Shown here: in pieces, positions 29,074 to 59,649 of the stretch
How positions within the stretch are numbered: position 1 is the first letter of the stretch
Layout of the letters: each line of letters begins with the position of its first letter
NCBI RefSeq assembly: GCF_026210795.1
Contig: NC_089434.1
Location: 2,914,001 to 2,978,000 of the forward strand
Source of the DNA: Rhizophagus irregularis
Lineage: Eukaryota; Glomeromycota; Glomeromycetes; Glomerales; Glomeraceae
Reading direction: 5' to 3'
Length of the DNA: 64,000 nucleotides
Made by a program: the position numbers and the translations under genes
Notes under the pieces: model-generated
Told to the model about the DNA's origin: nothing
Database searches by the model: none
What the model saw: the letters and a program-made list of their open reading frames with translations, nothing else

Positions 29074-29129
29074 GTGAGTATTTTAAAGAGAGGGGAAGCA
29101 GGTTTTTTTGTTTTTTTATGTAAGAACGT

Positions 29130-33669: not shown

Positions 33670-34732
33670 AATGTAACTTATTTTTTAAAGTACTTTGTTA
33701 AAATTTTAATTATCATGTGAGTGGTAAAATTTTTTTTTGTCATATTACATGAAATTTTTATAGATTTCCATGGAATTTTTGTAAAATCCATAAAAATTAC
33801 ATGAAAACTAGTCCAAAATTTTATATTTTTATTATTGCTACTTAATAAAATTATCCAACTTTAACCCATAATATTAATTAAAATTCTTATTAAATTCTAT
33901 AAAATAATCTGATAAAAATATTCAGTACATGTTGCTTTATCATTTTATTGGTTTAGTTTTTTCTTTTTACTATTCAATTTACAATTTATAAAAATTTGAA
34001 GTTATATAATATTAGTGTAGTTTATAGGTGACAGCCACCATAGTAATTTATATATATTTTTCTAAATAATAAAAGTTTTAAATAGGATAACTATTGCAAT
34101 TTTTAGTTATACTAATAAATATTTAAAATTTTATATAATTATAATTACTATTTTTATAAAAAAGAAATATATTTTAATAAATAATGTTGCTAATCTTAAC
34201 CAAAGGGATAATTTTTCTTCCTTAAGAATTAAAAAAAAATAAACTTTTTTTATGAAATATATAAAATAAATATAATTGGATATTAATCACATAAAAATTT
34301 AGCAATTTTTGGTTTTAAAAAAAATTTTTATTATGAAAAATACAATTTAATTATAAAAATTAAAATTATGTAATTTTCTCAAAAACCATCTGAACAACTA
34401 CCTTTTTTAATTTAATAAAACCTTTTTCTCATAAATTTATATATAATTTTATTTTTAAATTACTATACAAGTCAATATTTTAATTAAAAATTGAAATAAA
34501 AGGAGAGAAAAAGAAATTTTTTCTGGTTAAGTTTAGTAATTTTCTTTAATAAATACAATTAATTTATATAATTATTTTTTTTTTTATATAATAATTATAT
34601 TATATTTATTTTTAACAATACAAAATTTAATTGAATAATAATAAATTTTATTATATAATTAAAATAAAAAATTATAATACTAGTTAATATATATTTAAAA
34701 TATTAATAAATCTGTAGTAATATTTAGATATA
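33670..34732. other. AT-rich stretch without features
   Basis: Over 80% A/T, poly-A/T runs; nothing recognisable. Confidence 0.5.
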
Positions 34733-35014
34733 CAGTCAACTCCCTCTATAGTTACTCCCGTTATAGTCACATTCTACTATATAGTCACACCAGTTGAATA
34801 TTCAAAACACTTTATTATTAAAATCTATCCTATATAGTCACAATCTATCTATAGTCACTATTACACCTATCCTTAAAAATCTTATATTAAAAAGAACCGT
34901 TTATAATCACAGTTATATAAAGAATATATTAAATAACTTGGCATCTAATAATCGTACAAAGATATATCATAGCTTGTTAGAATCGTCTCACTGAGACGAA
35001 TCGAATGGTGGTAG
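34733..35014. mobile_element. Host DNA transposon, left segment
   Basis: Starts after TA (34731-34732) with the TIR cagtcaactccctctatagt. It runs to the first subterminal repeat (cgtctcactgagacgaatcg), where retroelement stack 1 begins. The rest of the same element is at 46641-47266 and 59609-59647. Confidence 0.82.
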
Positions 35015-35027
35015 TTTTATCCTTTCC

Positions 35028-36020
35028 TTTGCTAGTGTTTACGGCCAGACACCCCATTGCCTCTTATGAGACTAATACGGAATGCCAATGTGCCCTATCA
35101 TCTTCAATAGCAACCATTAGTACCCCGAGCACTTAATTCCTCAGGTAACAGCACCACTATAGAAGACATCCCCCATCGGGCCATTATAGGCTGATCTGAA
35201 GCTAGGTACACGCTGCCTACTCATCCTATACTCATTGTATGATACTGATACTTAATTTATTTAACAACCTTTAGAGAGCATCTACTTTCATGGAGGACTT
35301 TCGACAGGTAACATCAACCATCTAAGCACTTTTCATACCACCATTTTAGGTACTAAGTCTCACTCAAAGGGCCACTACAGCCCGCGATTACTTAGCACCG
35401 ATAGTACAGTTGTTTACCCCAAGTGGTATACTTTGTAGTGACCACTCGGACGGGAAGGTAGCAGGCTTCTGTCCAGGATCACCCCTTATGGTGGGTATCA
35501 ACCACCAGGGATCACCAACCAGGACCCAAGAAGTGGGGAATCGAACCCCATAACCATACTACCTGTTCTGTGCACGAACACCTTGGTTGGTCTAAGACCT
35601 AACAGAAGGTCAAACTACCACTAAGACATTGCACTCTCAGCTTTACCATCTGATGGACGACCATACTAGCCATTACTGACCCCAAGATGGTATCGGGTAG
35701 TGACCACCTGAACAGAAAGTCCCCCCCAAAGGTATAGTAGTGACCTCAAAGACAGGACTGCGCACATACCAATGGCCTCATAGGGAACGTTAGAACACAT
35801 ACGACCCTTAGTTGAAATGTGCGGCCTAACCGTACACACTAATTCACCATGATGCAGTCCAACTACACTAATCCCTGTACCTTCACGCTATTGGTTGTAG
35901 CGTCTGCAGTAAAATTCTTTTTATTTCCGTAGTCATGGGAATCGAACCTGCGACCTCACCATACTCAGGCTTAATGAGGGTCTCAGTGACTAACCACCGA
36001 GATAGGGTGACCAACCCTAG
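35028..36020 (-). mobile_element. tRNA-like SINE-type element, stack 1 unit 1
   Basis: About 990 bp, non-coding, minus orientation. Two Pol III-like modules, each with a perfect B box ggttcgattcc or close variant (inverse at 35938-35948 and 35537-35547) and an A-box-like tctYRgtggt upstream. Flanked by ttttatcc(t)tttcc at 35015-35027 and 36021-36034. This copy is somewhat more diverged than the next ones. Confidence 0.8.
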
Positions 36021-36034
36021 TTTTATCCTTTTCC

Positions 36035-37019
36035 TTTGCAAGTGTTTACGGCCAGACCACCCATTGCCTCTTATGAGACTAATCTCGGGTCTGTGTCCTA
36101 TCATCTTCAATAGGCAACCATTATACCGAGTACTTAATTCCTCAGGTAACAGCACCACTATAGAAGACATCCCCCATCGGGCCATTTTAGGCTGATCTGA
36201 AGCTGAGACACGCCGCCTACTCATCCTATACCCATTGCATGATACTGATACTCAATTTATTTAACGACCTTTAGAGAGCATCTACTTTCATGGAGGACTT
36301 TCGACAGGTAACATCAACCATCTAAGATCCCTTCCATACCACCATTTTAGGTACTAAGTCTCACTCAAAGGCCACTACAGCCCGCGATTACCTAGCACCG
36401 ATAGTACAGTTGTTTACCCCAAGTGGTATACTTTGTAGCGACCACTCGGACAGGAAGTAGCAGGCATCTGTCCAGGATCACCCCTTATGGTGGGTATCAA
36501 CCACCAGGGATCACCAACATGGAGGGGCCAAGGAGTAGGAAATCGAACTCCATAGCCATGCTACCTGTTCTGTGCACGAACACCTTGGTTGGTCTAAGAC
36601 CTAACAGAAGGTCTAACTACCACTAAGACATTGCACCCTCAGCTTTACCATCTAGGACGACCATCTAGCCATTACTGACCCCAAGCAGTATCGTAGAGTG
36701 ACCACCTGGACAGGAAGTCCCCCTCAAGGTATAGTAGTGACCTCAAGGACAGGATTGCGCACATGCCAATAGCCTCATAGGGAACGTTAGAAGAACACCA
36801 TGACCCTTAGTTGAAATGTGCGGCCTAACCGTACACACTAATTCACCATGATGCAGTCCAACTACACTAATCCCTGTACCTTCACGCTATTGGTTGTAGC
36901 GTCCGCAGTAAAATTCTTTTTATTTCCGTGGTCATGGGAATCGAACCTGCGACCTCACCATACTCAGGCTTAATGAGGGTCTCAGTGACTAACCACCGAG
37001 ATAGGGTGACCAACCCTAG
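36035..37019 (-). mobile_element. tRNA-like SINE-type element, stack 1 unit 2
   Basis: 985 bp, near-identical to units 7 and 9. B-box inverses near 36,936 and 36,540. Flanked by ttttatccttttcc at both ends. Confidence 0.85.
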
Positions 37020-37033
37020 TTTTATCCTTTTCC

Positions 37034-37462
37034 TTTTGCAAACAGTCTTATAACATTATTTTTATTTATATTTTAACATCGAAAATTCAAACGAACAATA
37101 TTACAAAAATAAGAAAATAAACTAATAAAAATAAAAAGAGTAGCTTCACGACTCATACAAGCAAAGAAATCTAAACTAAAATAAAATTAAAGCAAAGAAA
37201 AACTAGACTATTACAGAATCGCATACCCCAACTTTACCCGAAGGCCAGTGTGAGTCAACTATCCAACATCCAAAAATCCAGTCCGTTACCAGAAAGAAAT
37301 CCTAAGAGGTTGAACTGTTAAGCAGCGCAGAAAATCCAAGTGCGAGATCCATGATCCACCCCGAATTATAGAAGAGGATATCCAAGAAATCCAGGAATCC
37401 TGAGAAACTGTCGCCAAAGAAGAGTTATTTGTATGTGGAGAAGAAACAATAGGAGAAGAAAG
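37034..37462 (-). mobile_element. 5'-truncated LINE 3' end, stack 1 unit 3
   Basis: Minus-oriented. Encodes only the last residues of ORF2 (SWISHLDFLRCLTVQPLRIS) and the 3' UTR ending gtcttataagactgtttgc-like sequence. 5' truncation is typical of target-primed reverse transcription. Confidence 0.85.
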
Positions 37463-37476
37463 TTTTATCCTTTTCC

Positions 37477-37634
37477 TTTGCAAGTGTTTACGGCCAGACC
37501 ACCCATTGCCTCTTATGAGACTAATCTCGGGTCTGTGTCCTATCATCTTCAATGGGCAACCATTAAACCGAGTACTTAATTCCTCAGGTAACAGCACCAC
37601 TATAGAAGACATCCTCCATCGGGCCATTTAGGCA
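37477..37634 (-). mobile_element. 5'-truncated SINE-type element, stack 1 unit 4
   Basis: 158 bp, only the 3' end (as read on the minus strand) of the roughly 1-kb element; same flanking 14-bp word. Confidence 0.8.
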
Positions 37635-37648
37635 TTTTATCCTTTTTC

Positions 37649-40600
37649 TGTGCAAACAGTCTTATGACGTTATTTTTATTTATATTTTAACATCGAAAAT
37701 TCAAACGAACAATATTACAAAAATAAGAAAATAAACTAATAAAAATAAAAAGAGTAGCTTCACGATTCATACAAGTAAAGAAATCTAAACTAGAATAAAA
37801 TTAAAGCAAAGAAAAACTAGACTATTACAGAATCGCATACCCCAACTTTACCCGAAGGCCAGTGTGAGTCAACTATCCAACATCCAAAAATCCAGTCCGT
37901 TACCAGAAAGAAATCCTAAGAGGTTGAACTGTTAAGCGGCGCAGAAAATCCAAGTGCGAGATCCATGATCCACCCCGAATTATAGAAGAGGATATCCAAG
38001 AAATCCAGGAATCCTGAGAAACTGTCGCCAAAGAAAAGTCATTTGTATGTGAAGAAGAAACAATAGGAGAAGAATTTATAGATGGGCCACGTAATTTGGA
38101 AGCAGCCGAGACACTAGCAAGCTAGTCGAATTAATCTTTAACCGAAGTTTTATGTGTAAATTCTGGCTGACATAAAATGTTGTAAAATTTTGTAATTCAA
38201 TAGAGTAAATTCATCAATCGCTAAAGCGCTGTATATAAATTTTCGATACAGAATGATAAAATTTGTATTCATAAAGAAAGAGGAAAGGAATAGGAAAGCT
38301 TAAAATAAGCATGAAAGAAATGAAGTGTAAAAGAAGAATAATAAAAGGAAGGTAATTAATTAATAAGAAACTAGCGCAATTAGCGCATTAAAAAAACAGG
38401 ATGAACAAAATCAGCGGGTAATTCCCACGATGTTCGGAAATCAGAAGGAGCAGGGTAAGGATGTGAATCAAACCAAGGTGCACAAACATCCAATAACATT
38501 AAGATATCACAAGGTTTAACACGACCTAGTTTGAAAGAAAACCGGGTATCACTATTCCAAAGATGTGAAAATGTCGAAGATGAAGCCGATTTGGTGATAA
38601 TAGATTGGATGGCATCTCGAAGATACTTCTTCGATACCGAGGAAGTGTTGTGCTTGGAAATTAATAACCAGAGGAAATTGTGAGAAGGTACATAAATGGA
38701 AGCACTATTCGAGAGTATCCTTCAGACCATATCAATAATGGAACGACTAAAGCCAAGAGTTTTGAAATCTTGATAATCAATAGCAAGGCAGTTCAGACCA
38801 ACAAAAGGACCAGAGGTGGGTTTGTCAGTGATAAAATGACTTGCAACTACAGAAGAGGGATTCAAAACCACTTTTTGGATAGAACCCGTAAACTTAGAAG
38901 ACACGAACGCAACAGAAGATTGATGTGAATGTTCTTTCAAACAGAAGGAAACGTCAGGACGTGAGGATACAAGATTACGTATATTCTGGACAATTGAGTA
39001 ATCAGTAGTAGACATAGTCAAATTATAGGAGGTAGGAGGAATGACTATAGCAGGATCCTTAGTGGCCATCCACATAGAAGAGTCAAGAAGATCGGAGTGA
39101 ACAACATGTCGTGAAAATTTGCTCCAGTCTGATAGAAGGTCTTTATGGCGTACTTGACGAGCAAGTTGTTTCTTCGTAGGGTGGGAGATAGATTTGTGAG
39201 CAGAATATGAGATAAGAGTTCGAGCAGAAAGTGAACCACTGTCGTCCTCAAGAACATGATGAAAAGCATAGGATTTGCGGTAGAAAAGTCCTAGGCATCG
39301 GGAAGTTACATCTTTATAAAAACCATCAGCGTGTCTTTTAGACACACGGTTACAAGGTAAAGCAAAAGGAGGAGAAGGAGGAGGGGGAGGTGTATGAACA
39401 AGTTTTTTGTCATGAATATGACAAGCATGACGAAATTGAGACATAACATAGGCAGCAGGAGTCTTGCAAAACGGGCAACCAAAATAAAGGCCAAGGTAAA
39501 AGCAAGATTGACGATATCGAAATTGAATAAAGGTACGAGTACGTCTATTATTACGATGAGAAGATGACCAACGAGCAAGAGAGGTAACACATTGTGTTAA
39601 TAAAAGCTGGCGTAACCTATTAAAATATTTACGTCGAGCACGGGAGGGAATACGGTTCTGGCGGTAAAAGAAAAAGGTTAAAAATTTTGATAAAATAAAT
39701 TTCAAATTAGGAGAGGGACGATCAGATGTAAATTGAAATGGCTCAGTAGTTGAAAGAAGAGGAGAATTGGTATGAATTGAATAACAATTATCCGAATCAG
39801 GAGTGGGGTCCAAAAGGAAATAACAGTTGCCTCGTCGAATAGAATATAAACGGTTAGAGCCAATATTTCGAGCAGGATGTATCCGTCCATCCAGGATGGT
39901 ACATATAGTGAAAGTGTAAGATGAACACTGTACATTATCATGAAGAAGATGGGCTGAAGTAGAAGTTGCCGGTAAAGGTTCCGCAGGTGTACAATTCAAA
40001 GAAAGGACTGGAGAAGGGACGTTAATGTCATAATCAGCAGTATCTTCTGAAACTGAAATTTGGGGAGTAATAAGAGAGGAGTCTAGGAATGTATTTTGAA
40101 AGGGACTTATAGGTTCGGAAGGACGTGATAAAGGTGGAACCAATAAACGTATTGTAGAAGGAGATAAAACCAGACGCGTAAAAGACAATTTAGTCTTAAT
40201 TTTCTGTGCACGTTTAAAAGATGCAGGGGAAATCATAGAGGATACGCGTTTACAAAGAAATTTATAAGTACGCCGTGAAGGGCGTAAACAATTGGTGCGT
40301 CGTGTAGAAGGGGTACATAAATCTAAGATGAGATTAGGATCAGCCTCGTGTTTAGAAGCCCAAATAGCTAATGGAAGAGGAGGTAGATTATCAATCAATG
40401 GATCATCATGTGATGGATGATCGTCAACAGGGGGGATAGCGAAATCCTTTTCTGAATCCGCAGTAGATGAAAGAGAGTCTAAACGCAAGTGTAAAAGGCG
40501 TTTTTATTCAGAAAGAGAGTCGTCTAGAAGGCGGAGGGGGCCAAAAGCGAGGTAAGCACGTGACTTGGCGGAAGAGTTATCAGGAAAAGAGTTGTAACGA

Positions 40601-40815
40601 GCAAAAAGAGTTTCTTGTTTAAGGGCGCACTTAGCGCAAAGGTCCTCAACTTCGCGAAGTTTGAAAAGAACTTCATCCCAACTCAAGGTTGAGAAGTCGT
40701 GAAAAGAGGCCATAGGCCAGAATAAGAATAGAAAAGATAAAAATAAAAGAAAAAGTAATAAAAAACTTTGGAAAAATTTTTTTTTATTTTTATGTAAATA
40801 ATGTCGTGAGGGCCG
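37649..40815 (-). mobile_element. Coding element with LINE-type tail, stack 1 unit 5
   Basis: 3.17 kb, minus orientation: a leader of about 100 bp, a roughly 780-codon reading frame (40713 to 38380), a spacer with the inverted repeat ctagcaagctag (about 38,115), then about 470 bp matching the 3' end of the LINE family, ending in the same 3' terminus. Flanked by the stack's target word. Confidence 0.82.
38380..40713 (-). pseudogene. Unrecognised ~780-aa protein, copy 1 (broken)
   Basis: I do not recognise this protein. Start MASFHDFSTLSWDEVLFKLR at 40713. Compared with copy 2 it carries a CAA-to-TAA change after LLDDSLSE (near 40,507) and a CGA-to-TGA change after SIIDMV (near 38,720); the final part then continues in frame to a TAA at 38380. 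Visible features: a charged N-terminus with a CAKC pair; a Pro/Ser-rich middle; a basic Tyr/Phe/Arg-rich core (FFYRQNRIPSRARRKYFNRL); a C2H2-like motif CPFCKTPAAYVMSQFRHACH followed by IH; and a conserved C-terminal half without known motifs. No RT, nuclease or transposase signature is seen. Nucleic-acid binding is plausible from the basic core and Cys/His motif. Confidence 0.7.
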
Positions 40816-40829
40816 TTTTATCCTTTTCC

Positions 40830-41385
40830 TGTGCAAACAGTCTTATGACTTTATTTTTATTTATATTTAACATCGAAAATTCAAACGAACAATATTACAA
40901 AAATAAGAAAATAAACTAATAAAAATAAAAAGAGTAGCTTCACGACTCATACAAGTAAAGAAATCTAAACTAAAATAAAATTAAAGCAAAGAAAAACTAG
41001 ACTATTACAGAATCGCATACCCCAACTTTACCCGAAGGCCAGTGTGAGTCAACTATCCAACATCCAAAAATCCAGTCCGTTACCAGAAAGAAATCCTAAG
41101 AGGTTGAACTGTTAAGCGGCGCAGAAAATCCAAGTGCGAGATCCATGATCCACCCCGAATTATAGAAGAGGATATCCAAGAAATCCAGGAATCCTGAGAA
41201 ACTGTCGCCAAAGAAGAGTTATTTGTATGTGGAGAAGAAACAATAGGAGAAGAATTTATAGATGGGCCACGTAATTTGGAAGCAGCCGAGATACCCTGCG
41301 ACTTTTCCCAAGCATGGAAAAGAACATTCCGACATAGCCAAATTTCACCATATAATTTGACTTGGAAGTCATTAAGAAGAGGAGG
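40830..41385 (-). mobile_element. 5'-truncated LINE 3' end, stack 1 unit 6
   Basis: Encodes the C-terminal ORF2 end (EIWLCRNVLFHAWEKSQGIS then SWISHLDFLRRLTVQPLRIS) plus the 3' UTR. Longer than unit 3 and shows the LINE sequence upstream of the breakpoint used in units 5 and 8. Confidence 0.85.
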
Positions 41386-41399
41386 TTTTATCCTTTTCC

Positions 41400-42380
41400 T
41401 TTGCAAGTGTTTACGGCCAGACCACCCATTGCCTCTTATGAGACTAATCTCGGGTCTGTATCCTATCATCTTCAATGGGCAACCATTATACCGAGTACTT
41501 AATTCCTCAGGTAACAGCACCACTATAGAAGACATCCCCCATCGGGCCATTTTAGGCTGATCTGAAGCTGAGACACGCCGCCTACTCATCCTATACCCAT
41601 TGCATGATACTGATACTCAATTTATTTAACGACCTTTAGAGAGCATCTACTTTCATGGAGGACTTTCGACAGGTAACATCAACCATCTAGTACCCTTCCA
41701 TACCACCATTTTAGGTACTAAGTCTCATTCAAAGGCCACTACAGCCCGCGATTACCTAGCACCGATAGTACAGTTGTTTACCCCAAGTGGTATACTTTGT
41801 AGTGACCACTCAGACAGGAAGTAGCAGGCATCTGTCCAGGATCACCCCTTATGGTGGGTATCAACCACCAGGGATCACCAACCAGGACCCAAGGAGTAGG
41901 GAATCGAACCCCTTAGCCATGCTACCTGTTCTGTGCACGAACACCTTGGTTAGTCTAAGACCTAACAGAAGGTCTAACTACCACTAAGACATTGCACCCT
42001 CAGCTTTACCATCTAGGATGACCATCTAGCCATTACTGACCCCAAGCGGTATCGTAGAGTGACCACCTGGACAGGAAGTCCCCCCAAGGTATAGTAGTGA
42101 CCTCGAAGGACAGGACTGCGCACATGCCAATGGCCTCATAGGGAACGTTAGAAGGACACCATGACCCTTAGTTGAAATGTGCGGCCTAACCGTACACACT
42201 AATTCACCATGATGCAGTCCAACTACACTAATCCCTGTACCTTCACGCTATTGGTTGTAGCGTCCGCAGTAAAATTCTTTTTATTTCCGTGGTCATGGGA
42301 ATCGAACCTGCGACCTCACCATACTCAGGCTTAATGAGGGTCTCAGTGACTAACCACCAAGATAGGGTGACCAACCCTGG
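41400..42380 (-). mobile_element. tRNA-like SINE-type element, stack 1 unit 7
   Basis: 981 bp, full length; B-box inverses near 42,298 and 41,900; flanked by ttttatccttttcc at 41386-41399 and 42381-42394. Confidence 0.85.
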
Positions 42381-42394
42381 TTTTATCCTTTTCC

Positions 42395-45300
42395 TGTGCA
42401 AACAGTCTTATGACTTTATTTTTATTTATATTTAACATCGAAAATTCAAACGAACAATATTACGAAAATAAGAAAATAAACTAATAAAAATAAAAAGAGT
42501 AGCTTCACGACTCATACAAGTAAAGAAATCTAAACTAAAATAAAATTAAAGCAAAGAAAAACTAGACTATTACAGAATCGCATACCCCAACTTTACCCGA
42601 AGGCCAGTGTGAGTCAACTATCCAACATCCAAAAATCCAGTCCGTTACCAGAAAGAAATCCTAAGAGGTTGAACTGTTAAGCAGCGCAGAAAATCCAAGT
42701 GCGAGATCCAAGATCCACCCCGAATTATAGAAGAGGATATCCAAGAAATCCAGGAATTCTGAGAGACTGACGCCAAAGAAGAGTTGTGTTGAGGTGGAGA
42801 AGTAGTATTAGGAGAAGAATTTGTAGATGGGCCACGTAATTTGGAAGCAGCCGAGATACCCTGCGACTCTTCCCAAGCATGGAAAAGAACATCACTAGCA
42901 AGCTAGTCGAATTAATCTTTAACCGAAGTTTTATGTGTAAATTCTGGCTGACATAAAATGTTGTAAAAATTTGTAATTCAATAAAGTAAATTCATCAATC
43001 GCTAAAGCGCTGTATATAAATTTCTGATACAGAATGATAAAATTTGTATTCATAAAGAGAAGGGAAATAGGAAAGCTTAAAATAAGCATAAAAGAAGTGA
43101 AAAAGGGAAGATGATTAAAAGAAAGTAAAAGAAAGTAATTAATTAAAAGGGAACTAGCGCAATTAGCGCATTAAGAAAGTAGGATGAACAAAATCAGCGG
43201 GTAAAACCCACTGTGATCGAAAATCAGAAGGAGCAGGGTAAGGATGTGAATCAAACCAAGGTGCACAAACATCCAATAATGATAAGATATCACAAGGTTT
43301 AACACGACCTAGTTTGAAAGAAAACCGTGTATCACTGTTCCAAAATTGTGAAAATGTTGAAGAGGAGGCCGATTTGGTGATAACAGATTGGATGGCATCG
43401 CGAAGATACTTCTTTGATACCGAAGAAGTATTGTGCTTGGAAATTAATAACCAGAGGAAATTGTGAGAAGGTACATAAATGGAAGCACTATTCGAGAGAG
43501 TATCCTTCGGACCATATCAATAATGGAACGACTAAAGCCAAGAGTTTTGAAATCTTGATAATCAATAACAGGGCAGTTTGGACAAACAAAAGGACCAGAG
43601 GTGGGTTTGTTAGTAATAAAATGACTTGCAACTACAGAAGAGGGATTCAAAATCACTTTTTGGATAGAACCCGTAAACTTAGAAGAAACGAACGCAACTG
43701 AAGATTGATGTGAACGTTCTTTCAAACAGAAGGAAACATCAGGACGCGAGGATACAAGATTACGTATATTCTGAACAATTGAGTAATCAGTAGTAGACAT
43801 AGTCAAATTATAGGAGGTAGGAGGAATGACTATAGCAGGATCCTTAGTAGCCATCCACATAGAAGAGTCAAGAAGATCGGGGTGAACAACATGTCGTGAA
43901 AATTTACTCCGGTCTGATAAAAGGTCTTTATGGCGTACTTGACGGGCAAGTTGTTTCTTCGTAGGGTGGGAGATGGATTGGTGAGCAGAATATGAGATAA
44001 GAGTTCGTGCAGAAAGTGAACCATTGTCGTCCTCAAGAACATGGTGAAAAGCATAAGATTTGCGGTAGGAAATTCCTAGGCGTCGGGAAGTTACGTCTTT
44101 ATAAAAACCATCAGCATGTCTTTTAGACACACGGTTACAAGGTAAACTGAAAGGAGGGGAAGAAGGAGGGGGAGGAGTGTGAACAAGTTTTTTGTCATGA
44201 ATATGACAAGCATGACGAAACTGAGACATAACATAGGCAGCAGGAGTCTTGCAAAACGGACAACCAAAATAAAGGCCAAGGTAAAAGCAAGATTGATGAT
44301 ATCGAAATTGAATAAAAGTACGAGTACGTCTATTATTACGATGAGAAGATGACCAACGAGCAAGAGAGGTAACACGTTGTGTTAATAAAAGCTGGCGTAA
44401 TCTATTAAAATATTTACGTCGAGCATGAGAGGGAATACGGTTTTGTCGGTAAAAGAAAAAGGTTAAAAATTTTGATAAAATAAATTTTAAGTTAGGAGAA
44501 GGACGATCAGATGTAAATTGAAAGGGATCAGTAGTTGAAAGAAGAGGAGAATTGGTATGAATCGAATAACAATTATTCGAATCAGGAGTGGGGTCCAAAA
44601 GGAAGTAACAGTTGCCTCGTCGAATAGAATATAAACGGTTAGAGCCAACATTTCGAGCAGGACGTATCCGTCCATCCAGGATGGTACGTATTGTGAAAGT
44701 GTAAGATGAACACTGTGTGTGATCATAAGGGAAGGCTGAAACAGAAGTCGCAGGAAAAATTTCCGCAGGAATACTATTTAAAGAAAGGACCGGAGAAGCT
44801 AGAGGAGGAACGATATTGTCATAATCAGCGGTATCTACTAAGGCTGAAATTTGGGGAGTAATAAGAGAGGAATCCAGAAAATTATTTTGAAAAGAATTCT
44901 TAGGCTCGGAAGGACGTGGTAAAGGTGGAACCAATAAACGTATTGTAGAAGGGGATAAAACCAAACGCGCAAAAGACAATTTAGTTTTAATTTTCTGTGC
45001 GCGCTTAAAGGATGCAGGGGAAATCATAGAGGATACGCGTTTACAAAGAAATTTAGGAGTACGCCGTGAAGGGCGTAAACGATTGGTGCATCGTGTAGAA
45101 GGGGTACATAAATCTAAGATGATATTAGGATCAGCCTCGTGTTTAGAAGCCCAAATAGCTAATGGAAGAGGAGGTAGATCATCATTCATTGGATCATCAT
45201 GTGATGGATGATCGTCAACAGGGGGGATAGCGAAATCCTTTTTTGAATCCGCAGTAGACGAAAGAGAGTCCAAGCGCAAGTGTAAAAGGCGTTTTTGTTC

Positions 45301-45613
45301 AGAAAGAGAGTCGTCTAGTAGGCGGAGGGGGCCAAAAGCGAGGTAAGCACGTGACTTGGCGGAAGAGTTGTCAGGAAGAGAGTTGTAACGAGCAAAAAAG
45401 AGTTTCTTGTTTAAGGGCGCACTTAGCGCAAAGGTCCTCAACTTCGCGAAGTTTGAAAGAACTTCATCCCAACTCAAAGTTGAGAAGTCATGAGAAGAGG
45501 CCATAGGCCAGAGGAAGGATAAAAATAAAAGAAAAATTAATAAAAAACTTTGAAAAAAATTATTTTATTTTTATGTAAAAATTGTCGTGAGGGCGAACGG
45601 GAGAGAGATTTAG
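42395..45613 (-). mobile_element. Coding element with LINE-type tail, stack 1 unit 8
   Basis: 3.22 kb second copy of unit 5. The LINE-derived tail is about 40 bp longer at its 5' side than in unit 5 before reaching cactagcaagctag, so the tail/ORF junction is not identical. On its 5' side the target word is doubled (45614-45626 and 45629-45642). Confidence 0.82.
43163..45504 (-). pseudogene. Unrecognised ~780-aa protein, copy 2 (nearly intact)
   Basis: Longest continuous frame 45504-43444 (686 codons), start MASSHDFSTLSWDEVL. Relative to copy 1 it has a one-base loss and a one-base gain around residues 17-40, so this stretch is read out of frame locally. A 2-bp insertion near 43,493 causes a premature end; the original frame runs on to 43163. 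Same Cys/His motif and basic core as copy 1. That both copies keep several hundred codons open argues the protein was functional until recently (inference). Confidence 0.75.
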
Positions 45614-45642
45614 TTTTATCCTTTTTGGTTTTATCCTTTTCC

Positions 45643-46626
45643 TTTGCAAGTGTTTACGGCCAGACCACCCATTGCCTCTTATGAGACTAATCTCGGGTCT
45701 GTGTCCTATCATCTTCAATGGGCAACCATTATACCGAGTACTTAATTCCTCAGGTAACAGCACCACTATAGAAGACATCCCCCATCGGGCCATTTTAGGC
45801 TGATCTGAAGCTAGGTACACGCCGCCTACTCATCCTATACCCATTGCATGATACTGATACTCAATTTATTTAACGACCTTTAGAGAGCATCTACTTTCAT
45901 GGAGGACTTTCGACAGGTAACATCAACCATCTAGTACCCTTCCATACCACCATTTTAGGTACTAAGTCTCACTCAAAGGCCACTACAGCCTGCGATTACC
46001 TAGCACCGATAGTACAGTTGTTTACCCCAAGTGGTATACTTTATAGTGACCACTCAGACAGGAAGTAGCAGGCATCTGTCCAGGATCACCCCTTATGGTG
46101 GGTATCAACCACCAGGGATCACCAACCAGGACCCAAGGAGTAGGGAATCGAACCCCATAGCCATGCTACCTGTTCTGTGCACGAACACCTTGGTTGGTCT
46201 AAGACCTAACAGAAGGTCTAACTACCACTAAGACATTGCACTCTCAGCTTTACCATCTAGGACGACCATCTAGCCATTACTGACCCCAAGCGGTATCGTA
46301 GAGTGACCACCCGGACAGAAAGTCCCCCCAAGGTATAGTAGTGACCTCAAGGACAGGACTGCGCACATGCCAATGGCCTCATAGGAAACGTTAGAAGGAC
46401 ACCATGACCCTTAGTTGAAATGTGCGGCCTAACCGTACACACTAATTCACCATGATGCAGTCCAACTACACTAATCCCTGTACCTTCACGCTATTGGTTG
46501 TAGCGTCCGCAGTAAAATTCTTTTTATTTCCGTGGTCATGGGAATTGAACCTGTGACCTCACCATACTCAGGCTTAATGAGGGTCTCAGTGACTAACCAC
46601 CAAGATAGGGTGACCAACCCTTGAGG
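45643..46626 (-). mobile_element. tRNA-like SINE-type element, stack 1 unit 9
   Basis: 984 bp full-length copy, the outermost unit on the right of stack 1; followed by ttttatccttttcc (46627-46640) and then host transposon DNA. Confidence 0.85.
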
Positions 46627-46640
46627 TTTTATCCTTTTCC

Positions 46641-47266
46641 GATCACTGGCTGACGAGTTATTCAACAAAATGTTAAACATCAGCATTATAATATTTCTTG
46701 ATTTACGTTTACTGCGCCATTTAACATTTTGCTAGATTTCTCGGTACCTAGTGATTGTAAAAAGACGATTTATAGCTCGTTGGAATCGCCACATCGAGAC
46801 GAATCGAATGGTGGTAAGCTCACCTCTCTGTGATCAATATTGACGGAGTTATTACTTAAAAACCATTTAATATTTTTTAATTTCGGAAATTGATCTAGTG
46901 ATTGGATTTCGATGTATCTTATACCATTAGATTCGTCTCATCAAGATGAATCGAATGGTAGTAAGATCGTTTTTCTAGGATCAATATTGGTAGAGTTATT
47001 ACACAAAAACCATTAATATTTTTTTAATTTCGGAAATTAATCTAGTGATTGGATTTCGACGTATTTTATACCATTAGAACCGTCTCATCAAGACGAATCG
47101 AATGGCGGTAAGATCATCTCTCTACGATTAATATTGGCGAAGTTACGATACAATAAAGTTTTAAGTATAATTCTGGCTAAAATTATGTTAATTTTTGGCC
47201 GGAATTATGATATACAAATATAAGAAATTTTTTATATAGTCACATCTCTTTATAATCACCAAATAT
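46641..47266. mobile_element. Host DNA transposon, internal segment
   Basis: Contains three diverged copies of a roughly 150-bp subterminal repeat (from about 46,770, 46,920 and 47,065). Each has the hairpin cgtctcatcaagacgaatcg, then gatcaatattgg, then gagttatta. A fourth copy is the one split by stack 1. Right part matches 23171-23312. Non-coding. Confidence 0.8.
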
Positions 47267-47348
47267 GGAGGATCATCGCAACTCTTTCCTGAATTTTTGA
47301 AAATACTAATAAAATTTATTTTTGAAATTTTCGTTCGAAAATTTCTAA

Positions 47349-49529
47349 GTGCTCGTTCAAAATACTAATATTTCCACAGTTGCTTTCCTCTTTACTGAGC
47401 TTTATACTATGACTTCACCTCCAGCTCCTTCTGTTATTAACCCGGATATTCCGCCACCACCGCGTCCTGTTACTTCTACTCCCTCTGGAGACCGACCTTT
47501 GTCTCCTACCAATACCGCTGACGCTCCTAATAAACGTACACGTACTGTCTCTGATGACGCGATGAATGTTGATATAACTTCGCCCTCAGCTCCTGCTTCC
47601 ACCTTTACTTCTACTGTTCCTTCTGGTCTTCCTGTCAACAAAGTCCACGTGATTACTTCTCCTCAAAATATTACCACTCCTGTTGAAACTGTTGACGCTT
47701 CTATCCATGCTCCCTCTAACACCAGTGGTAAAGGCAAAGCTGTTGTCTTTGATGTCCCAGAACGACGACCATCTCCCGATGGTAATGCTGCTGCTATCAA
47801 ATCTGCACCCTCTCGTTATCATGCTGCGGCCTATCTACGTGACGCGCCTGACGCGTTCAAAGCTAAATTCACCACCAATCGCTCTATATGTGACGAGGTG
47901 GATTGTTCACTCTCCCGTTATTCCTCTTATGGCGCTCGCGCACGATGTGATGGATTAGGCGATAACAAGAAAATCCTTGTCCTCTTTAATAATCATGATG
48001 ATTATACTGATTGTATCACCTCTCCACATGCCGATCTCCTCGATTTGGCCTTCAGTCATTACTCCCCTGCAGACGCCAAGCTCAGTGACGAGATGAAGTC
48101 CTTATTCGTCACTGATATCCCACTTTTTCTAACTGAGACTCAAGTCCGTCAGGCATTTTCCCGATATGGTACTGTAATCAAGTGCAAACTTACTCCTAGG
48201 AAACATTACTATAATGGACATATCCAGTTTTCCTCCGCGGATGCAGTTACCCAATTTAATGATATTTGGGCGATCATTTGCCTTGGTAATTCTTTACGTG
48301 TCTGCTCGGCATCTTTCTCAAAAACCCAACGCGACAGCCGTAGAGAACATGTCGCCATCCTTGCTGGCATCCCAAAGAATATTAAAGAAGCTGATCTGTT
48401 GGAAATTGCTACTCAAGTTAACGCTAAAGCCCTTAACGTTCCTCTATCTATCAGCTCCTACAAGCCTAAACCCTATGTATATTTGAACTTCTCCTCGTTT
48501 GAATCTCTTGAAGCTGCCAAAGAAATGACCGTGGCTTTCCGCGGCAAAGGTTTAACTTGGCACCCTCCTAATGAAGCTCACACTTTATGTCATATCTGTG
48601 AATGTTCGGGTTGCTCTCCTTCTGTATGTAGCCCTCGCCCTACACGAAAAGTGGACGATCGCCTTAACAAACTTTACTCTCGCTTCAATGCTGGCCCTAG
48701 ACGAGGCCGTCAGGATTCATGACAATCACGTGACAATTCTAATTCCCGTTCAAGATCGCGTTCCAATTCTCGATCTCGCAATAATAATTCCTCTTCATCT
48801 CGCTCTAACAACAGCAATAATAAGTCTAACACTTCTCGTCCCAATACTCCTCGAAGTAGTAACCGGACTAACAATAATAATAATAATCCCAGGAACAATG
48901 GAAATTCTTCCGGACCTACTCAACCTCCGCACAGACCTCATCCTATTATTTCTACGACACCTACTTCTTCCTCTGACAATCCTGCCCCTACGCTTCCTCA
49001 ACATATTATTGATGAACTAAAGGCGCAGATTAAAGAGATCGCTAACACCCTCCATACTCTCGAGGAAACTGTCTCTTGGATGAATGATACTATCACGTCC
49101 CATGAATATAGGCTATCTGAGCTTGAATCAATGATGAATTATGATAACCCTGGTGACTCTGATTTGTATCCGCCTCGTGATGATCATGAAAATCAAAATT
49201 ATTCTTATGATAATGGATGGGATGATGCTCCAACCCATGACACGAATTCTGGTTTCAATCTTCCTCCCCATACTTCCTCTTCTCTTATGGACGTTTCTCC
49301 TGATGCTTCTTTCTCAGCTTTGGATCCTAGCTCCGTCCTATCAAAACGACATGTCCCCTTACCTGTTTCCCGACCTACTAATATCACCCCCGACGCTAAC
49401 ACTTCCCGTTTGCAATCAGAAATTTTTAATGTTACTACTACACAAAAGAATCTTTCTGCCCAACTTGGTTCGATTATGGAAAAATTGGACTCCTTCTCTC
49501 CTTCAAAACCCTCCCCTTCTAATGATTGA
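47349..49529 (+). CDS. LINE ORF1 protein with RRMs (in-frame TGA at 48,720)
   Basis: RNA-binding ORF1p. The uninterrupted part is 457 aa (47349-48722). A Pro/Ser/Thr-rich N-terminus is followed by RRM-like domain 1 (SLFVTDIPLFLTETQVRQAF with YYNGHIQF), RRM-like domain 2 (EHVAILAGIPKNIKEADLLE), and a Cys cluster CHICECSGCSPSVC. After a TGA at 48720-48722 the same frame stays open for 268 codons: an SR-type stretch (SRSRSRSNSRSR), an Asn/Pro-rich linker, a coiled-coil-like IIDELKAQIKEIANTLHTLE, and an acidic end, stopping at 49527-49529. The TGA is either a CGA-to-TGA mutation or a readthrough stop. ATG at 47409 (MTSPPAPS) is an alternative start. Confidence 0.85.
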
Positions 49530-52500
49530 ACACCAACTTGTATCGGGTGTCTCACAGGGATTTCACCCCCCTGATAGTGCGATACCTAATTTTAATAGTC
49601 CTTATAATCCCCCTTCTCCTTCTTTTTCTTCCCCTCTTATTAACTTTGGACAAATCAATGTTAATGGATTATGTTCCCCTGTACGACAACTGCATTTGTT
49701 AAATTATTTCCTTCATTCTTCTTTTGGCGTTTTATCTTTAAATGATACTCGTCTTACTTCTTCTAGTGCTAAATTTATTTATCAAAATGAACATTTCCAA
49801 TATAATTTTAAATCTTATTGGGCTCCTTCCCCCTCTAATTCGCGACCACATGATGGTGTTGGTCTTTTACTTCGCCATCCTTTACACAAACATGTTCAGA
49901 AGATTGATCCCTGGAAAGGTCGTCTTTTAAAATTAGATCTTTTTTTTCATCAGACAAAAATTTCTATTATCTCTGTTTATATTCCTCCTTATCATTCTAT
50001 TCATTATAAAGAACGTGATGTTATTCTTGTTCAACTTAATTTATGGCTTGATCAAGCCCGTTCCAATAACTATCACGTAGTTATCCTTGGTGATTTTAAT
50101 GCAGATAAAATTTCACATTCACATCTTTCTCAACATCATTTGAAAATTTTACGATCACTCTCTTCTCGATATTTTACGGATCACCAATCCCATATTTCCT
50201 CAATTTCAGGTCCTAGTCCTACCTTTTATCATCAAAATGGTTCTTCAAGACTTGATTATATCTGGTCATCCCCTGGATTTCCTGCTCCCGGTCTTTTCTC
50301 TCAAGTTGCAACTTGTCCTAAGCTGAATGATAATCAATTTACTGATCATTGTGTACTTATAACGGCCTTTGATTTTAGCTCATGTTTCGCTATTTTATCC
50401 AAAGCTCGATTAAAGCAGAAAAGCGAACAACGCACCATCTTTCTTTACAAAAATTTGAAAGATGACACTTGGGACAAATTTTCCAATGAAGTAAACTCAC
50501 GTCTTGAGTTATACTTGATCACACACCACCCTTCAGTATCTTCACTTTCAGCTCTTTCATTGGACAAACTTTGGCACGTTCTTAAACGTTCTATTCTTGG
50601 TGGTGGCATTGATTCTCTACCATTCCAACATGTATCCAATACTCATCACCATAAATATCCTCCTGAACTTACCATGCTTATTGCTGTCAACAAATTCTTG
50701 GATAGATTATTGTTTAAATTGACCACATCTAGGCCTAGTCGTCCTGCTCAAATTTCACAAATGATTAATTCTTTACCAATCCAATTAATCCTCCTTAAGT
50801 CTCTTTTAACAGATTATACTATACCTTCTTATAGTACAACACCGCTTTCTACTTTTGTCAAATTTTTACGTTCACAAAAAGCTTTGGTCTCAGCTTATCT
50901 TTCCACACAATTTCATCAGCATCGTGTAGATTCCATTGAATATTATACTGCTCTTAGAGATGAACATTTCTCTACATCCTCGGGCTCTTTTATTTCTTCA
51001 GCCCTATCAGTGGAACATCGTTCTATCGTCCTTGATAGAGTTTTGGTTGTTATTGACTCCAAACCCACATTATTTACTGATCCTTCAGATATTAAACAAG
51101 CTGCTATTAAACACTTCCAATCAGTTGTCACTCCTCCTTTGGTCCAGTATTCTTCTACGGATTCATTTCCTTCACGATGGCAACGAGCTTATACTCCTCT
51201 TCCAGATATTGATTCGTCCTTATATAACTCGGTTATGTCTCCTATTCTGGCCGATGAATGGAAAAACACTCTCAATTCTATGCCTAATAATAAAGCCTCT
51301 GGTCCTTCCAAGATCTCTTATGAGATGCTCAAACATTTAACTGGAGAAACTTTCAATTTGTCCCTTGTATTAGCCAATGCTTGTCTCATTCATGGAGATA
51401 TTCCTGCCGATTGGCGTGAAGCGCTTGTTTATCCCATTCCAAAGCCTCATGAATTTGACGCCCAATTGAAGAATACGTGACCTATCACTCTATTGGAAAC
51501 AGTACGAAAATGTGTGGTTAAGGTCGTTACAACTCGACTATCAAAAATCCTAGCCGACAATCAAGTGCTCCAAGGTGGTAATTTTGCCGGATTACCAGGC
51601 GGCTCCACCGACATTCCTATTAAGATGCTTGATGCTATTATTCATCAACGACGCTTTGATAAAAGCGATGACCAAGAACTATGGGTTGTTTCTCAGGACA
51701 TTTCTAAGGCCTTTGACTCAATTGATTTGAACATGCTTAGACTGGCTTTAATCCGTCTGCATATTCCGTCTTTATTGATCAAATTTATCATTAACCTTTT
51801 TACAAGGCGTAATAATAAAATTATTACACATCATGGTGATACTTCTGGATATAGAGTTAGAATTGGTATTGACCAAGGTGAAATCATCTCTCCACTGTTA
51901 TGGGTTATATACTTGGATCCGTTACTTACCACACTTAATCGAGAAGCTTGTGATCCCTTTATTTTGAAATCTTCTGCATTATTGGATTATTCTCCAATTG
52001 AATATGAACAACATAATTTTCCCGTTTCACATATTACATTCATGGATGACTCTACTTTGATTGCTTCATCTAAACAAGGAATTGAAGATCGCCTTTATAT
52101 CACTGCTGAATTTTACACTTTAAATAATACTCAAGCAAATTCAGCAAAATATATCCTTCTTTCTTCTGAACAATTTTCTCAAATTATTGTATTTGATCTA
52201 TTCCCATCTTCTTTAAATACGATTCATACCCTTACTTTAAAGGCGGTAGCCTTATCTACATCTTTTCGGTTTTTAGGTGTTTGGTTTAACCTTTTGGCTT
52301 CTTCTCGTTTCGTTCATAACCAAACTGTTTCCATGGTCAAAGACATGGCCGCTCTACTCAGTCCTAAAAAACTTTTAGCACAACATATAGCTTATCTTTA
52401 TAACGTTGTCCTACTTCCGAGGCTAGAATTTCGCCTACAAACCACATTATTTGCAGAATCCACCATTAATCGCATGGTTTCTCCAATGCTTTCTCTTATT

Positions 52501-55002
52501 CGTCAGAAGGCTGGTTTGGCCTCAGTCACTCCTCTTTCCACACTCTTCACACTGTTGCCTTTCTCTATTCAACAAGCATTTGGTCGATTTCTATCATCTC
52601 ATGTGGCTTCATGGCAGAAAATTTTTTCTCACCCTTCATATAAGCTCTTTGCTAATTATATGATTACTTATCTCCAAGGTTTTTTGGACTGTGATGTCTG
52701 CCCTTCTACTATTGACCTGGAACCATGGTCCCACACCTTTTCTTTGCGAACACATTCTTTATTTAATTCTTTATTGTTCTCTTCTCGTTTAAATATCACG
52801 TGGTCTTTACTGTTCCGACCTCCGAGGAAAGATTTACGTCCGGCGATTCCACTCCAGTCTATTTTACCAAATGATTTATTTACTTCCATGAAAAATGTTC
52901 GGAAAAATTTCTGCACTCATTTTCTTGCTCAATTGATTACACCGTGTGGCTCTCGACTTCTCTCATGGAAAGATTTACGTTTTCTTAAACGAGTATCGAA
53001 CAAAGGATCTGTGCCTGCTTGGTTTAATTATTTGTTCAATCTTATTGTTATTCCTAATTCACTTTCTTTTTTTATTTTACAACAATTTAGAATTCCTAGT
53101 TCTCATACCGTAGCTTCTATTTCTTTTATAGATATTAGTCGAAATTATTGGTTTAACCCTCAATGGGCTATTTCTTTTAATCGCGATACTAACTCTTTCC
53201 TCGTTGGCCGTGTGATTACTACCTATCCTGCTCCACGTAATGAAGCTCTTATTTCACATTGGATTGCGTCATCGGTTGATGATTTACTTTCTGAATTTAC
53301 TGCATGCCAAGGTTGTGCCTCTGCTATTCCGCGATCCTCTACCTCTAAGACTTTGATTAAACGATGTCCCTCTGAAGGATGTTTCTCTTATGTTCCGTTA
53401 TCAAGTTTGATCCGTTATCCTACGAAACCTCGTACTTATATACATGCGGATACTCATTCGGTTTCACTTTCTGCCTCGTTAGGCTATGCCAAATCTCTTT
53501 TACTATTTCATCTTTTTGCTCCGGTTCGCTTACTTCCTACGAATGAACTAGTGCTTAGGATTTCTGATATCCAACTTCCTTCTTCGGTGTTTACCCTTTA
53601 TATTGATGGTTCCTTCCTTTCTCCTCCTAGTCATCCGGCATCCTCGATGGCTTATGCATGGACTGCTATAGATCCTGATGGATTTATTTTGGAATCCCAT
53701 TATAATATCATCTCTTCCATTTTTCCTTCTGCTTTACGTTCAGAAGTTTTTGCTTTATTGCACGGATTGGACTCCCTTTCTCGGAATTCAAAGATTACTG
53801 TCGCCACTGATTGTGCTCAATTACTTTCTTTATGGTCTTTGTATGTGGATGCTCCTTTTATTCCCAGAATGCTTAAAGAATCCAATTACCTTTTGTGGTC
53901 CACCATACGCACTATTATGTTGCAAAAGAATCTGGATGTTACCTTGATCAAGGTTCCTGCTCATGCTGACGACCCTTTGAATAATCATGTGGATGCATTA
54001 GCTAAAGCCGCTCATACTGACTCACATCTTTCTTCTTGTCCACCATCGGAATTGATGGCTCCTTGCATTTTACAATTTAATTCCTTACCTGTGGATATGA
54101 ATATCCGGAAATTTATTAGAGATATTTTTGACGCCAAAAGTCTTTTAACTCTTGCTGTATTACCAAGATTTAATTCCTATTCTTCAACTTCTGATATTGA
54201 TTGGGCTTGCACCAAATTTTGTCTCAATAACATTAAGCATTTTGTCTCTCATCAGAATGGCCGTTCCGAGTTTTGTGGTTTCCGTATCAAGCTACTTTTA
54301 GATATGCTTCCAACGCTTACAACTCTTCAGAGACGAAAGCCTCATCTTTATAATCCAAGTTGGCTTTGTCCTCAATGTAATTCCTTTCCTGAGACTTTAG
54401 ACCACTTGTGGACTTGTCCTTATATTTTACCGGAATTTAGCCCTTTACAAACTTTTAAAACATTACTATTGGCTCTTCAGACTACTTATCTTGATAATTT
54501 CCTTTCCGCGTCATCTTTAATCCCTTTACCAGACTCTTTTGCTGCTGAATTTATGGCTCTTAATTGTTGGGATTGTGACCCTCCTTCAATTTCCTGCCTG
54601 CGACTCACAAGAGGACTTATACCGATATCTTTGACAGAATTTCTTGGAATTTATTTTTCTTCACCTACCATATGGTCTATCTTAGATACACCTTTGCACG
54701 ACTTTCATTTTGACCTTTATGTTCAAATCTGGTTGTGCCGATCCATTTTCTTTCATCATTGGGAATTAGCTCAAGGCATTACAAAAAAAATGAAATCGTC
54801 AGCTCTTGGGCCTTCTTCTATTCTTCGACCTTCCTCTAACATTCCTCTTGACTCTTCGACACCTTCCTTGGTGACAGCTTCCTTGGATTCCTGGGATTCT
54901 TGGGTTTCCTCTTCTATAATCTATGGGGGATCTTGGATTTCGCATTTGGATTTTTGGCGCCGCTTAACAGTTCAGCCTCTACTTAGGATTTCTTTTTGGT
55001 AA
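49522..55002 (+). CDS. LINE ORF2 polyprotein (one in-frame TGA at 51,478)
   Basis: About 1,826 codons. The start ATG at 49522 overlaps the ORF1 stop (ATGATTGA). The endonuclease domain (about residues 35-270) shows FGQINVNGL, ILGDFNADK, SRLDYIWSS and TDHCVLI. RT: PNNKASGPSKISYEMLKHLT, then PITLLETVRK, ISKAFDSIDLNMLRLALIRL, GIDQGEIISPLLW and the catalytic FMDDSTLIAS at 52039. RNase H: TLYIDGSF, RSEVFALLHGL, VATDCAQL, HVDALAKAA. The C-terminal zinc-type motif CPQCNSFPETLDHLWTCP lies near 54,370. A TGA at 51478-51480 sits where CGA (Arg before PITLL) is expected, so this copy is probably inactive. The conserved endonuclease Glu is not obvious (LSLNDTRL). Confidence 0.88.
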
Positions 55003-55282
55003 CGGATTGGATCTTAGGACATGCTGGATAGTTGACTCACACTGGCCTTCGGGTAAAGATGGGGTATGCGTTTCTGTAATAGTTTAGTTTTTCTTTACTT
55101 AATTTTATTTTGTTTAGATTTCTTTACTTGTATGAATCGTGAAGCTTGTTCTTTTTATTTTTTATGTTTATTTTCTATATTTGATATTTGTAATATTGTT
55201 CGATTTGTTTATTGTACTTTTCGTTTAAATTTAATAATAAAAGATAAAGTCATAAGACTGTTTGCTCATAATCACCAAATAT

Positions 55283-56082
55283 CAACTAAGGGTCATGATG
55301 TCCTTCTAACGTTCCCTATGAGGCCATTGGCATGTGCGCAGTCCTGTCTTTGAGGTCACTACTATACCTTAGGGGGGACTTCCTGTCCGGGTGGTCACTC
55401 TACGATACCACTTGGGGTCAGTAATGGCTAGATGGTCGTCCTAGATGGTAAAGCTGAGGGTGCAATGTCTTAGTGGTAGTTTGACCTTCTGTTAGGTCGT
55501 AGACCAACCAAGGTGTTCGTGCGCAGACAGATAGCTTGGTGATTGGGTTCGATTCCCATTCTCTGATGGGCCCTGGTTGGTGATTCCTGGTGGTTGATAC
55601 CCACCGAAGGGATGATCCTGGGTAACACCTACAAGCTTACTGTTCAGGTGGTCACTACAAAGTATACCACTTGGGGATTACAACTGTACTATCGGTGGTG
55701 GGTAATCGCGGGCTGTAGTGGCCTTTGAGTGAGACCTAGTACCTAATATGGTGGTATGGAAGGGGTCTAGATGTTTGAAAGTTATCTGATGAAAGTCCTC
55801 CGTGACAGTAGTAGTGGTGAGGGGTTATAATAGTAGCCATTACAGTATCATGCAACGGATTAAAGGACGAGTAGGGTGGTGTTCAGCAGATTCGAAGGCC
55901 TTCGGATCCCTGGGATAAGTCCTTGCGTTTCAGTTGTGGTGTTGAATTGTCCCTGTTAAAAAGGTGGCGGGGATGGTTACATCATACATAGGTGAGGATG
56001 ATGCAATGAACGACCTACCTCCATAGCCTTCAATAGAGGGTGCGGAAAGTAGTGGCCACTAAACTTACAAAACACTTGTAAA
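55283..56082 (+). mobile_element. 5'-truncated tRNA-like SINE-type element, stack 2 unit 2
   Basis: 800 bp, plus orientation; lacks the first tRNA-like module but keeps the second (B box 55546-55556). Between target words at 55268-55282 and 56083-56097. More diverged from the stack 1 copies, with a different 3' end (aaaacacttgta). Confidence 0.82.
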
Positions 56083-56097
56083 ATAATCACCAAATAT

Positions 56098-59593: not shown

Positions 59594-59608
59594 ATAATCA
59601 CCAAATAT

Positions 59609-59647: not shown

Positions 59648-59649
59648 TA

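Follow-up and report, generated by a model that had tools for sequence, protein, structure and literature searches.

We are highly confident that a long interspersed nuclear element (LINE) of Rhizophagus irregularis, LINE1, together with two elements, A and B, that are probable borrowers of its machinery, inserts at one nucleotide position of a ~965-bp miniature inverted-repeat transposable element (MITE) and builds stacks of inserts there. The stretch of DNA analysed here, in the following called the window, comprises 64 kb (C6:2914001-2978000 of the searched 146.7-Mb assembly with 32 contigs) and holds two such stacks. Both lie in one MITE, the right terminal inverted repeat (TIR) of which begins at 34,731 and the left TIR of which ends at 59,649, and 13 retroelements have expanded this single ~965-bp transposon to 25 kb.

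The junction word of stack 1 reads GTTTTATCCTTTTCC on the plus strand and GGAAAAGGATAAAAC in the sense of the elements. Its exact 14-mer ttttatccttttcc is found at 36021, 37020, 37463, 40816, 41386, 42381, 45629 and 46627, and variants with 1-2 mismatches are found at 35015, 37635 and 45614. All eight exact 14-mers of the window fall inside stack 1 and on the same strand; at up to 3 mismatches, 45 copies occur in the window, compared with a mean of 23.3 and a largest value of 33 in shuffled sequences. Between the words, reading and repeat analysis revealed nine inserts, all in the same orientation on the minus strand. The 14-mer scan, the reading and the repeat analysis agree with the word positions, the nine inserts and the single orientation given in the initial annotation of this DNA, and several inserts (4, 6 and 7) are 5'-truncated, as had also been proposed. 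The three element types of that annotation, however, are reduced to two families: A (~985 nt; 35.0-36.0, 36.0-37.0, 37.48-37.63, 41.4-42.4 and 45.6-46.6 kb), with the 3' end ..GTAAACACTTGCAAA or a near variant, and the LINE-derived B (37.03-37.46, 37.65-40.81, 40.83-41.38 and 42.4-45.6 kb), with the 3' end ..AAGACTGTTTGCACA or a near variant. Stack 1 and its flanks are composed as follows:

34731..35012, minus strand: right end of the host MITE with TIR TACAGTCAACTC, flanking site 1 on its 3' side in element sense; 96.0-98.3% to 21 empty MITEs
35014..35028, minus strand: 3'-most target word, a 1-nt deletion variant GGAAAGGATAAAAC that adjoins MITE sequence TACCACCATTCG
35029..36019, minus strand: insert 9, a full-length element A and the most divergent of the four such copies in the stack
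36020..36034, minus strand: target word
36035..37018, minus strand: insert 8, element A, full length
37034..37461, minus strand: insert 7, B or LINE tail, 5'-truncated
37477..37633, minus strand: insert 6, element A, 5'-truncated
37649..40814, minus strand: insert 5, B, nearly full length, with a shorter open reading frame (ORF) at 38722-40488 (588 aa)
40830..41384, minus strand: insert 4, B, 5'-truncated
41400..42379, minus strand: insert 3, element A, full length
42395..45612, minus strand: insert 2, B element with a 686-aa ORF at 43444-45504
45613..45642, minus strand: target word and a second partial copy CAAAAAGGATAAAAC, 5' junction of insert 2
45643..46625, minus strand: insert 1, element A, full length, on the MITE 5' side
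46626..46640, minus strand: original 5' target word, preceded by native MITE sequence ..GCCAGTGATC
46641..47252, minus strand: middle part of the host MITE, lying between sites 1 and 2 and containing ~147-bp repeat units; 94.3-98.6% to empty MITEs, with the whole piece covered in 16 of 21

The doubled word at 45613-45642 (GGAAAAGGATAAAAC followed by CAAAAAGGATAAAAC) could reflect slippage or a nearly zero-length insertion.

Evidence for the nature of the word comes from sites without an insert. Exact copies of the word number 503 in the genome (control 0), and the uninterrupted pattern GATCGGAAAAGGATAAAACTACCACC has 54 exact occurrences and 370 when up to 3 mismatches are allowed, with none in the reversed control. 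Next to all 30 fetched exact empty sites lies at least one copy of the TIR (TACAGTCAACTC/GAGTTGACTGTA), and in 21 of them a pair of TIRs brackets the site; the bracketed MITE measures 964-966 bp in 14 of these 21 (remaining copies 937-1398 bp), and pairwise identity averages 96.9% (87.0-99.6%). The host is thus short, bears TIRs and exists in many near-identical copies and is, as far as its sequence tells, a MITE-like transposon of ~965 bp that carries both stacks; its TIRs end in TA, and it may be of Tc1/mariner-like origin. It holds units of ~147 bp, and the site-1 word sits at the matching place of one of them. The MITE remnants of the window resemble the empty copies by 96-100% (left), 94-99% (middle) and 96-98% (right). 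When the flanks of stack 1 were joined (400 nt), they matched 21/21 bracketed empty MITEs at 94.8-98.0%; 20 of these alignments cross the junction, cover at least 391 nt of MITE and have 1-3 gap openings, and the remaining one spans 214 columns. Moreover, the outer flanks recur between loci, the first word being preceded by ..GCCAGTGATC and the last one followed by TACCACCATTCGATTCG.., in a comparison that covered loci with an A copy on the locus minus strand; the word scan of the loci covered both strands.

Consistently, the words of neighbouring elements go together. Among 200 listed junction rows of 320, the 14-nt word was identical in 42 of 58 neighbour pairs, compared with a mean of 24.2 after shuffling, and none of 5000 shuffles reached 42; in the 25 pairs with a variant word, the same variant was present in 9 (shuffled mean 1.1). 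As in R1-type arrays, the copies are hence separated by a target-site duplication (TSD) at the normal site. Since the word is a duplicated target, each insertion leaves a fresh one, and the earlier idea of a self-perpetuating landing site holds: insertion duplicates the target, and neighbours share word variants.

Across the genome, the tails of the elements point to the same position. Exact A tails were counted 234 times (reversed control 2), and the site-1 core follows within 7 nt in 208 of them; exact LINE/B tails were counted 236 times, followed by the site-1 core in 112 and by the exact word of a second site (site 2, see below) in 97 cases. In 30/30 loci fetched by an A query, which itself included the word, the matched A has the word or one of its variants in front of it; three of these loci belong to the window stack. 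Taken together, there are a fixed site and empty sites, a 15-nt TSD and a few variable nucleotides at the 5' junction, as in site-specific elements with an APE (apurinic/apyrimidinic endonuclease)-type enzyme. By these sequence comparisons, LINE1, A and B are site-specific for one MITE position, and the word is not peculiar to the window locus. The initial annotation had regarded the word as a locally duplicated target and not an element end, and had held that solo copies elsewhere with the same word would make it element sequence. Solo copies of this kind do exist (L011, L017 and L091), but they leave the word as non-element sequence because uninserted MITEs carry it; the same word surrounds the elements genome-wide because these are site-specific for one MITE position. 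The duplicated target therefore stands, on the empty sites, the joined flanks and the neighbour words, and the locality of the word does not, as it is found genome-wide. An endonuclease that needs a word-initial GG was considered and dropped, since the empty sites include GC, GT and AG variants. In filled sites, GT and AG were seen before and after A and LINE/B, and GC after LINE/B.

LINE1 measures 7.85 kb and encodes an APE endonuclease, reverse transcriptase and RNase H. It was seen solo and full-length with the word at both sides of the insert, and in a broken copy (L091) Exo_endo_phos scored above the Pfam cut-off. Elsewhere in the genome, open frames of up to 1,952 aa extend over the match to the LINE C-terminus. 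Searches with the LINE proteins returned distant matches, chiefly R2 and LINE-1 proteins.

Element B of insert 2 consists of the 5' 104 nt (88%) and the 3' 500 nt (95%) of LINE1, between which lies an unrelated 686-aa ORF (43444-45504, minus strand). No Pfam match was obtained for this ORF, and a protein search found 28 relatives, 27 of them named Rhizophagus (7992 candidates scored). It is perhaps a captured gene, or the replaced ORF of a non-autonomous LINE. Element A has no ORF of at least 120 aa wholly inside any copy of stack 1. It displays a box-B-like motif, GGTTCGATTCC; in a search for a tRNA-derived head, ARAGORN returned nothing in the window and Rfam nothing up to E 1. The 3' end that a short interspersed nuclear element (SINE) has in common with its partner LINE is absent from A: compared with the LINE1 3' end, it gave no match at E 1, and just a few terminal nucleotides are alike.

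Stack 2 lies on the plus strand and is built around the word AATCACCAAATAT, with 5 exact copies at 47.25-59.61 kb; the corresponding site 2, ATAATCACCAAATAT, is located ~41 nt inward from the MITE's left end. The initial annotation rightly noted that its word differs from that of stack 1, but the host transposon is the same, and the words are unlike because stack 2 occupies a second target site of this MITE and contains a sister LINE, LINE2. Its parts are:

47252..47266, plus strand: site-2 word ATAATCACCAAATAT, first copy of stack 2
47267..55266, plus strand: LINE2, full length, with ORF1 containing an RRM, an APE endonuclease ORF, and an ORF with reverse transcriptase (RT) and RNase H
55283..56083, plus strand: A-like element, 5'-truncated, with a 3' domain of site-2 type
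56098..58563, plus strand: LINE2, 5'-truncated
58580..59595, plus strand: A-like element, full length, site-2 type
59596..59649, plus strand: final site-2 word together with the host MITE's left end, which terminates in ..GAGTTGACTGTA

In the LINE2 of the window, Exo_endo_phos, RVT_1 and RNase_H all exceed the Pfam cut-off, and a stop separates the endonuclease ORF from the RT ORF (47267..55266). The RRM is above the cut-off in ORF1 of both LINE1 and LINE2. A comparison of LINE1 (L091) with LINE2 (window) gives identities of 43-84% for protein segments, 37% for ORF1 and 84% for the DNA of the 3' ends. The A-like element of stack 2 has 730 nt in common with A at 86%, and in the last ~250 nt the two match in a 33-nt and a 16-nt stretch only. 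Elsewhere in the window, another MITE left end (23171-23380) is 95% like 47110-47266 and contains a TIR and an uninterrupted site 2 (23315-23327). On other contigs, LINE2 tails lie ~8.0 kb apart at C17:3667167, 3675183 and 3683171 and at C19:2538337 and 2546343, a spacing that probably represents tandem arrays of full-length LINE2 at site 2.

The division of the two sites is reflected in the LINE C-terminal protein matches, which provide a test independent of the words and for which the best 150 of 906 candidates were scored. Three rows that stop short of the C-terminal end were dropped and a similar one (C2:4023309) was kept, leaving 147. Of these, 40 are followed 231-386 nt downstream by a site-1 junction and 42 by a site-2 junction; the match length is 624-702 nt in the site-1 group and 717-726 nt in the site-2 group, with no exception; therefore, two sister LINEs divide the two sites. 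For 65 of the 147, neither junction is listed; the lists require an exact 14-mer, and 100 of the 112 places for site 1 and all 97 for site 2 were used.

A third related subfamily (LINE3, P0035-like) was found on C18, C12 and C27, is 68-72% identical to the query and broken by stops, and its copies have nearly the same 3' end sequence. In two of the three copies, GTAGAAAGACGATCTAACCACC or GTAAAAAGACGATCTAACCACC follows and then a flank with 79-80% identity to the MITE right flank (82-column alignment), which identifies it, by alignment, as the homologous position in a diverged repeat. The remaining copy (L092) lies in related repeats in another register.

How often stacks form was counted on contigs C1-C18 only, where both tail lists are complete. 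Here, 163 elements are arranged in 106 stacks of size 1 (73), 2 (19), 3 (9), 4 (3), 5 (1) and 8 (1), the last being the window stack with one tail missed. A Polya model, which counts each word as a target, beats a Poisson model at 150 or 235 empty sites. The order of growth was approached by private branch lengths of 36 distinct full-length A copies from the fetched loci and the window; of these loci, L001-L030 had been chosen by similarity to a word-containing stretch of the window and L061-L090 by the exact word. From the 5' to the 3' side of the MITE, the A copies of the window have private branches of 0.005, 0.005, 0.017 and 0.054, and 13 of 15 within-stack pairs in 5 stacks agree with growth at the 5' word (exact P 0.011). 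This suggests, and no more than suggests, that stacks grow mainly at their 5' word.

Several observations speak against the proposed insertion at a single MITE position or against the way in which stacks are thought to grow. Neither site pattern was matched by 26/234 A and 27/236 LINE/B tails, for which decayed words or other sites are possible, and words differ in 16 of the 58 neighbouring pairs, so that tandem neighbours frequently, but not always, share their TSD, a point for which the initial annotation had suggested a check. At 95 empty sites, Poisson and Polya perform about equally, and an equal excess of stacking could arise from MITEs that are older or easier to reach; the comparison of both models is weak because the numbers of empty sites (95, 150 and 235) were assumed. 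When 5'-end and 3'-end A copies were pooled, no difference was seen (13 vs 9, P 0.35). In the LINE1 copy L091, the RVT_1 and RNase_H pieces remain below the cut-off (24.1, 18.1 and 21.2 bits). Finally, A and LINE1 have almost no 3' sequence in common, so that only the shared site points to a mobilisation of A by LINE1; A (and B) probably borrow the LINE1 machinery.

Other routes to word-separated elements were weighed against separate insertions. The word could be a 3' tail carried in the element RNA, marking the junctions as element sequence, and it does follow most A tails in the genome, including those of solo copies. However, the word is present in uninserted MITEs, the first word in a stack lies between native MITE sequence and the first element, word variants are tied to the locus, and LINE2, with a 3' end 84% similar, has another word behind it; the empty sites argue against a tail of this kind, which we reject as extremely improbable. 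A single-event concatemer, formed by template jumping of the reverse transcriptase between RNAs, would account for the head-to-tail order and the single orientation, but it would not place the target word between the copies and does not fit the very unequal private branch lengths of the window A copies (0.005 to 0.054), which leaves it with a practically negligible probability.

Multiplication of elements together with their word, by tandem duplication or unequal crossing over, for a whole stack or part of one, is slightly less remote than these two, yet still very unlikely. It would equally give neighbours the same words, the all-A stack at C1:1408-1412 kb shows near-equal spacing, and inserts 3 and 8 of the window are nearest relatives in the tree (support 0.85), each preceded by a B tail in element sense. 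In contrast, the order of A and B in the window is irregular and the 5' truncation points differ, 18 of the 33 stacks of at least two on C1-C18 combine A tails with LINE/B tails, and the four full-length A of the C1 stack are not grouped in the tree; separate insertions are therefore favoured. A copied A+B block within the window stack was likewise found to be unsupported, as identity is 97.75% between inserts 3 and 8 but lower (95.5%) between the B tails next to them (2 and 7), and tail 7 is nearer to tail 4 (98.6%). Transposition of an already loaded MITE is also unsupported: the window and the C1:1408 kb locus have a 1-nt word deletion in common beside the same A subtype, but their A copies are not sisters (93.3% identical).

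For separate insertions, the following sequence of events is proposed. The LINE1 endonuclease would nick one MITE strand at GATC|GGAAAAGG, and reverse transcription of LINE1, A or B RNA would be primed at the nick. Cleavage of the other strand ~15 nt away duplicates GGAAAAGGATAAAAC and leaves a few variable nucleotides at the 5' junction, as visible in the junctions. The site is then present again on both sides of the insert, and later elements land there in the same orientation, giving inserts separated by the local version of the word, which is the arrangement observed; growth may take place mainly at the 5' word, beside the native GATC. The same process applies to LINE2 and its own A-like partner at the second MITE site on the other strand, and the third related LINE subfamily occupies related, diverged repeats.

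A broader and more tentative reading, to which we give somewhat less than an even chance, is that a LINE lineage has specialised on the family of ~147-bp units of which much of the MITE consists and that its subfamilies diverged by moving between units or sites, partners following, with the MITE as a mobile landing pad. LINE1 would then use site 1, LINE2 site 2 and LINE3 a diverged homologous unit, and A and its stack-2 relative would be non-autonomous partners with a common 730-nt body and different 3' domains. If so, the MITE both feeds and shelters retrotransposons, and target, LINE and partner radiate together. Two sites in one host, with hundreds of empty and filled copies, offer a countable natural experiment on target change of a LINE endonuclease, and the window illustrates a route from a MITE to a 25-kb block of retroelements. 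Annotation of such stacks by similarity only would overlook the spacing word as target sequence.

Outside the stacks, the clearest ordinary gene among the ORFs scanned is a 597-aa ORF (13464-15257, plus strand) with a WD40 beta-propeller match that is F-box pof12-like. Tandem repeats of 125-137 bp are common to two blocks ~3 kb apart (28775-29129 and 31700-32348), and a comparison of the window with a plasmid collection gave no match.

R1, like the fungal LINEs, has an APE-type endonuclease. In R1 arrays of Drosophila 28S ribosomal DNA (rDNA), copies at the normal target are separated by a 14-bp TSD, and a new R1 was inferred to enter the TSD that lies 5' of a resident copy (PMC2718515). The fungal stacks are alike in the TSD between copies, the 14-15-bp duplication and the variable 5' junction, and their branch-length order fits, but does not prove, the 5'-TSD insertion inferred for R1. 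Unlike R1, the fungal elements insert into a MITE dispersed through the genome and not into rDNA, the stacks mix a LINE-derived element with a non-autonomous element with which it has almost no sequence in common, and sister LINEs have separate sites within a single host transposon.

Of interest is also Tx1L of Xenopus, a non-LTR (long terminal repeat) retrotransposon that inserts at a specific site in the abundant DNA transposon Tx1D and thus resembles the fungal system in targeting a specific site inside an abundant DNA transposon; to our knowledge, neither stacks nor two-site sharing are known for Tx1L/Tx1D. Zepp inserts into earlier Zepp copies. Clusters of this green-algal LINE at centromeres represent local build-up of one family, and, in contrast to the fungal system, the portion of the source available mentions neither a MITE nor a fixed 15-bp target (PMC11005252). 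Utopia is target-specific in U2 snRNA genes, with one family occasionally in tandem, but differs by its restriction-like endonuclease, its U2 target and arthropod families without TSD (PMC4640811), and some non-LTR retrotransposons are described to target other transposable elements (PMC8869645).

For R. irregularis itself, repeat curation names LINE/L1-Tx1, L1-R1, LINE/I and SINE families, and the terms "target site", "tandem" and "nested" do not appear in its main text (PMC11075540). Among the titles and abstract openings listed from the open-access literature, no report of this MITE-specific system was found, although it may be reported elsewhere. The mechanism as such is already known, because TSD-separated R1 arrays with 5'-TSD insertion are in print; new to us are the fungal MITE target, the sharing of its two sites by sister LINEs, stacks of mixed composition and the altered 3' domain of the partner element.

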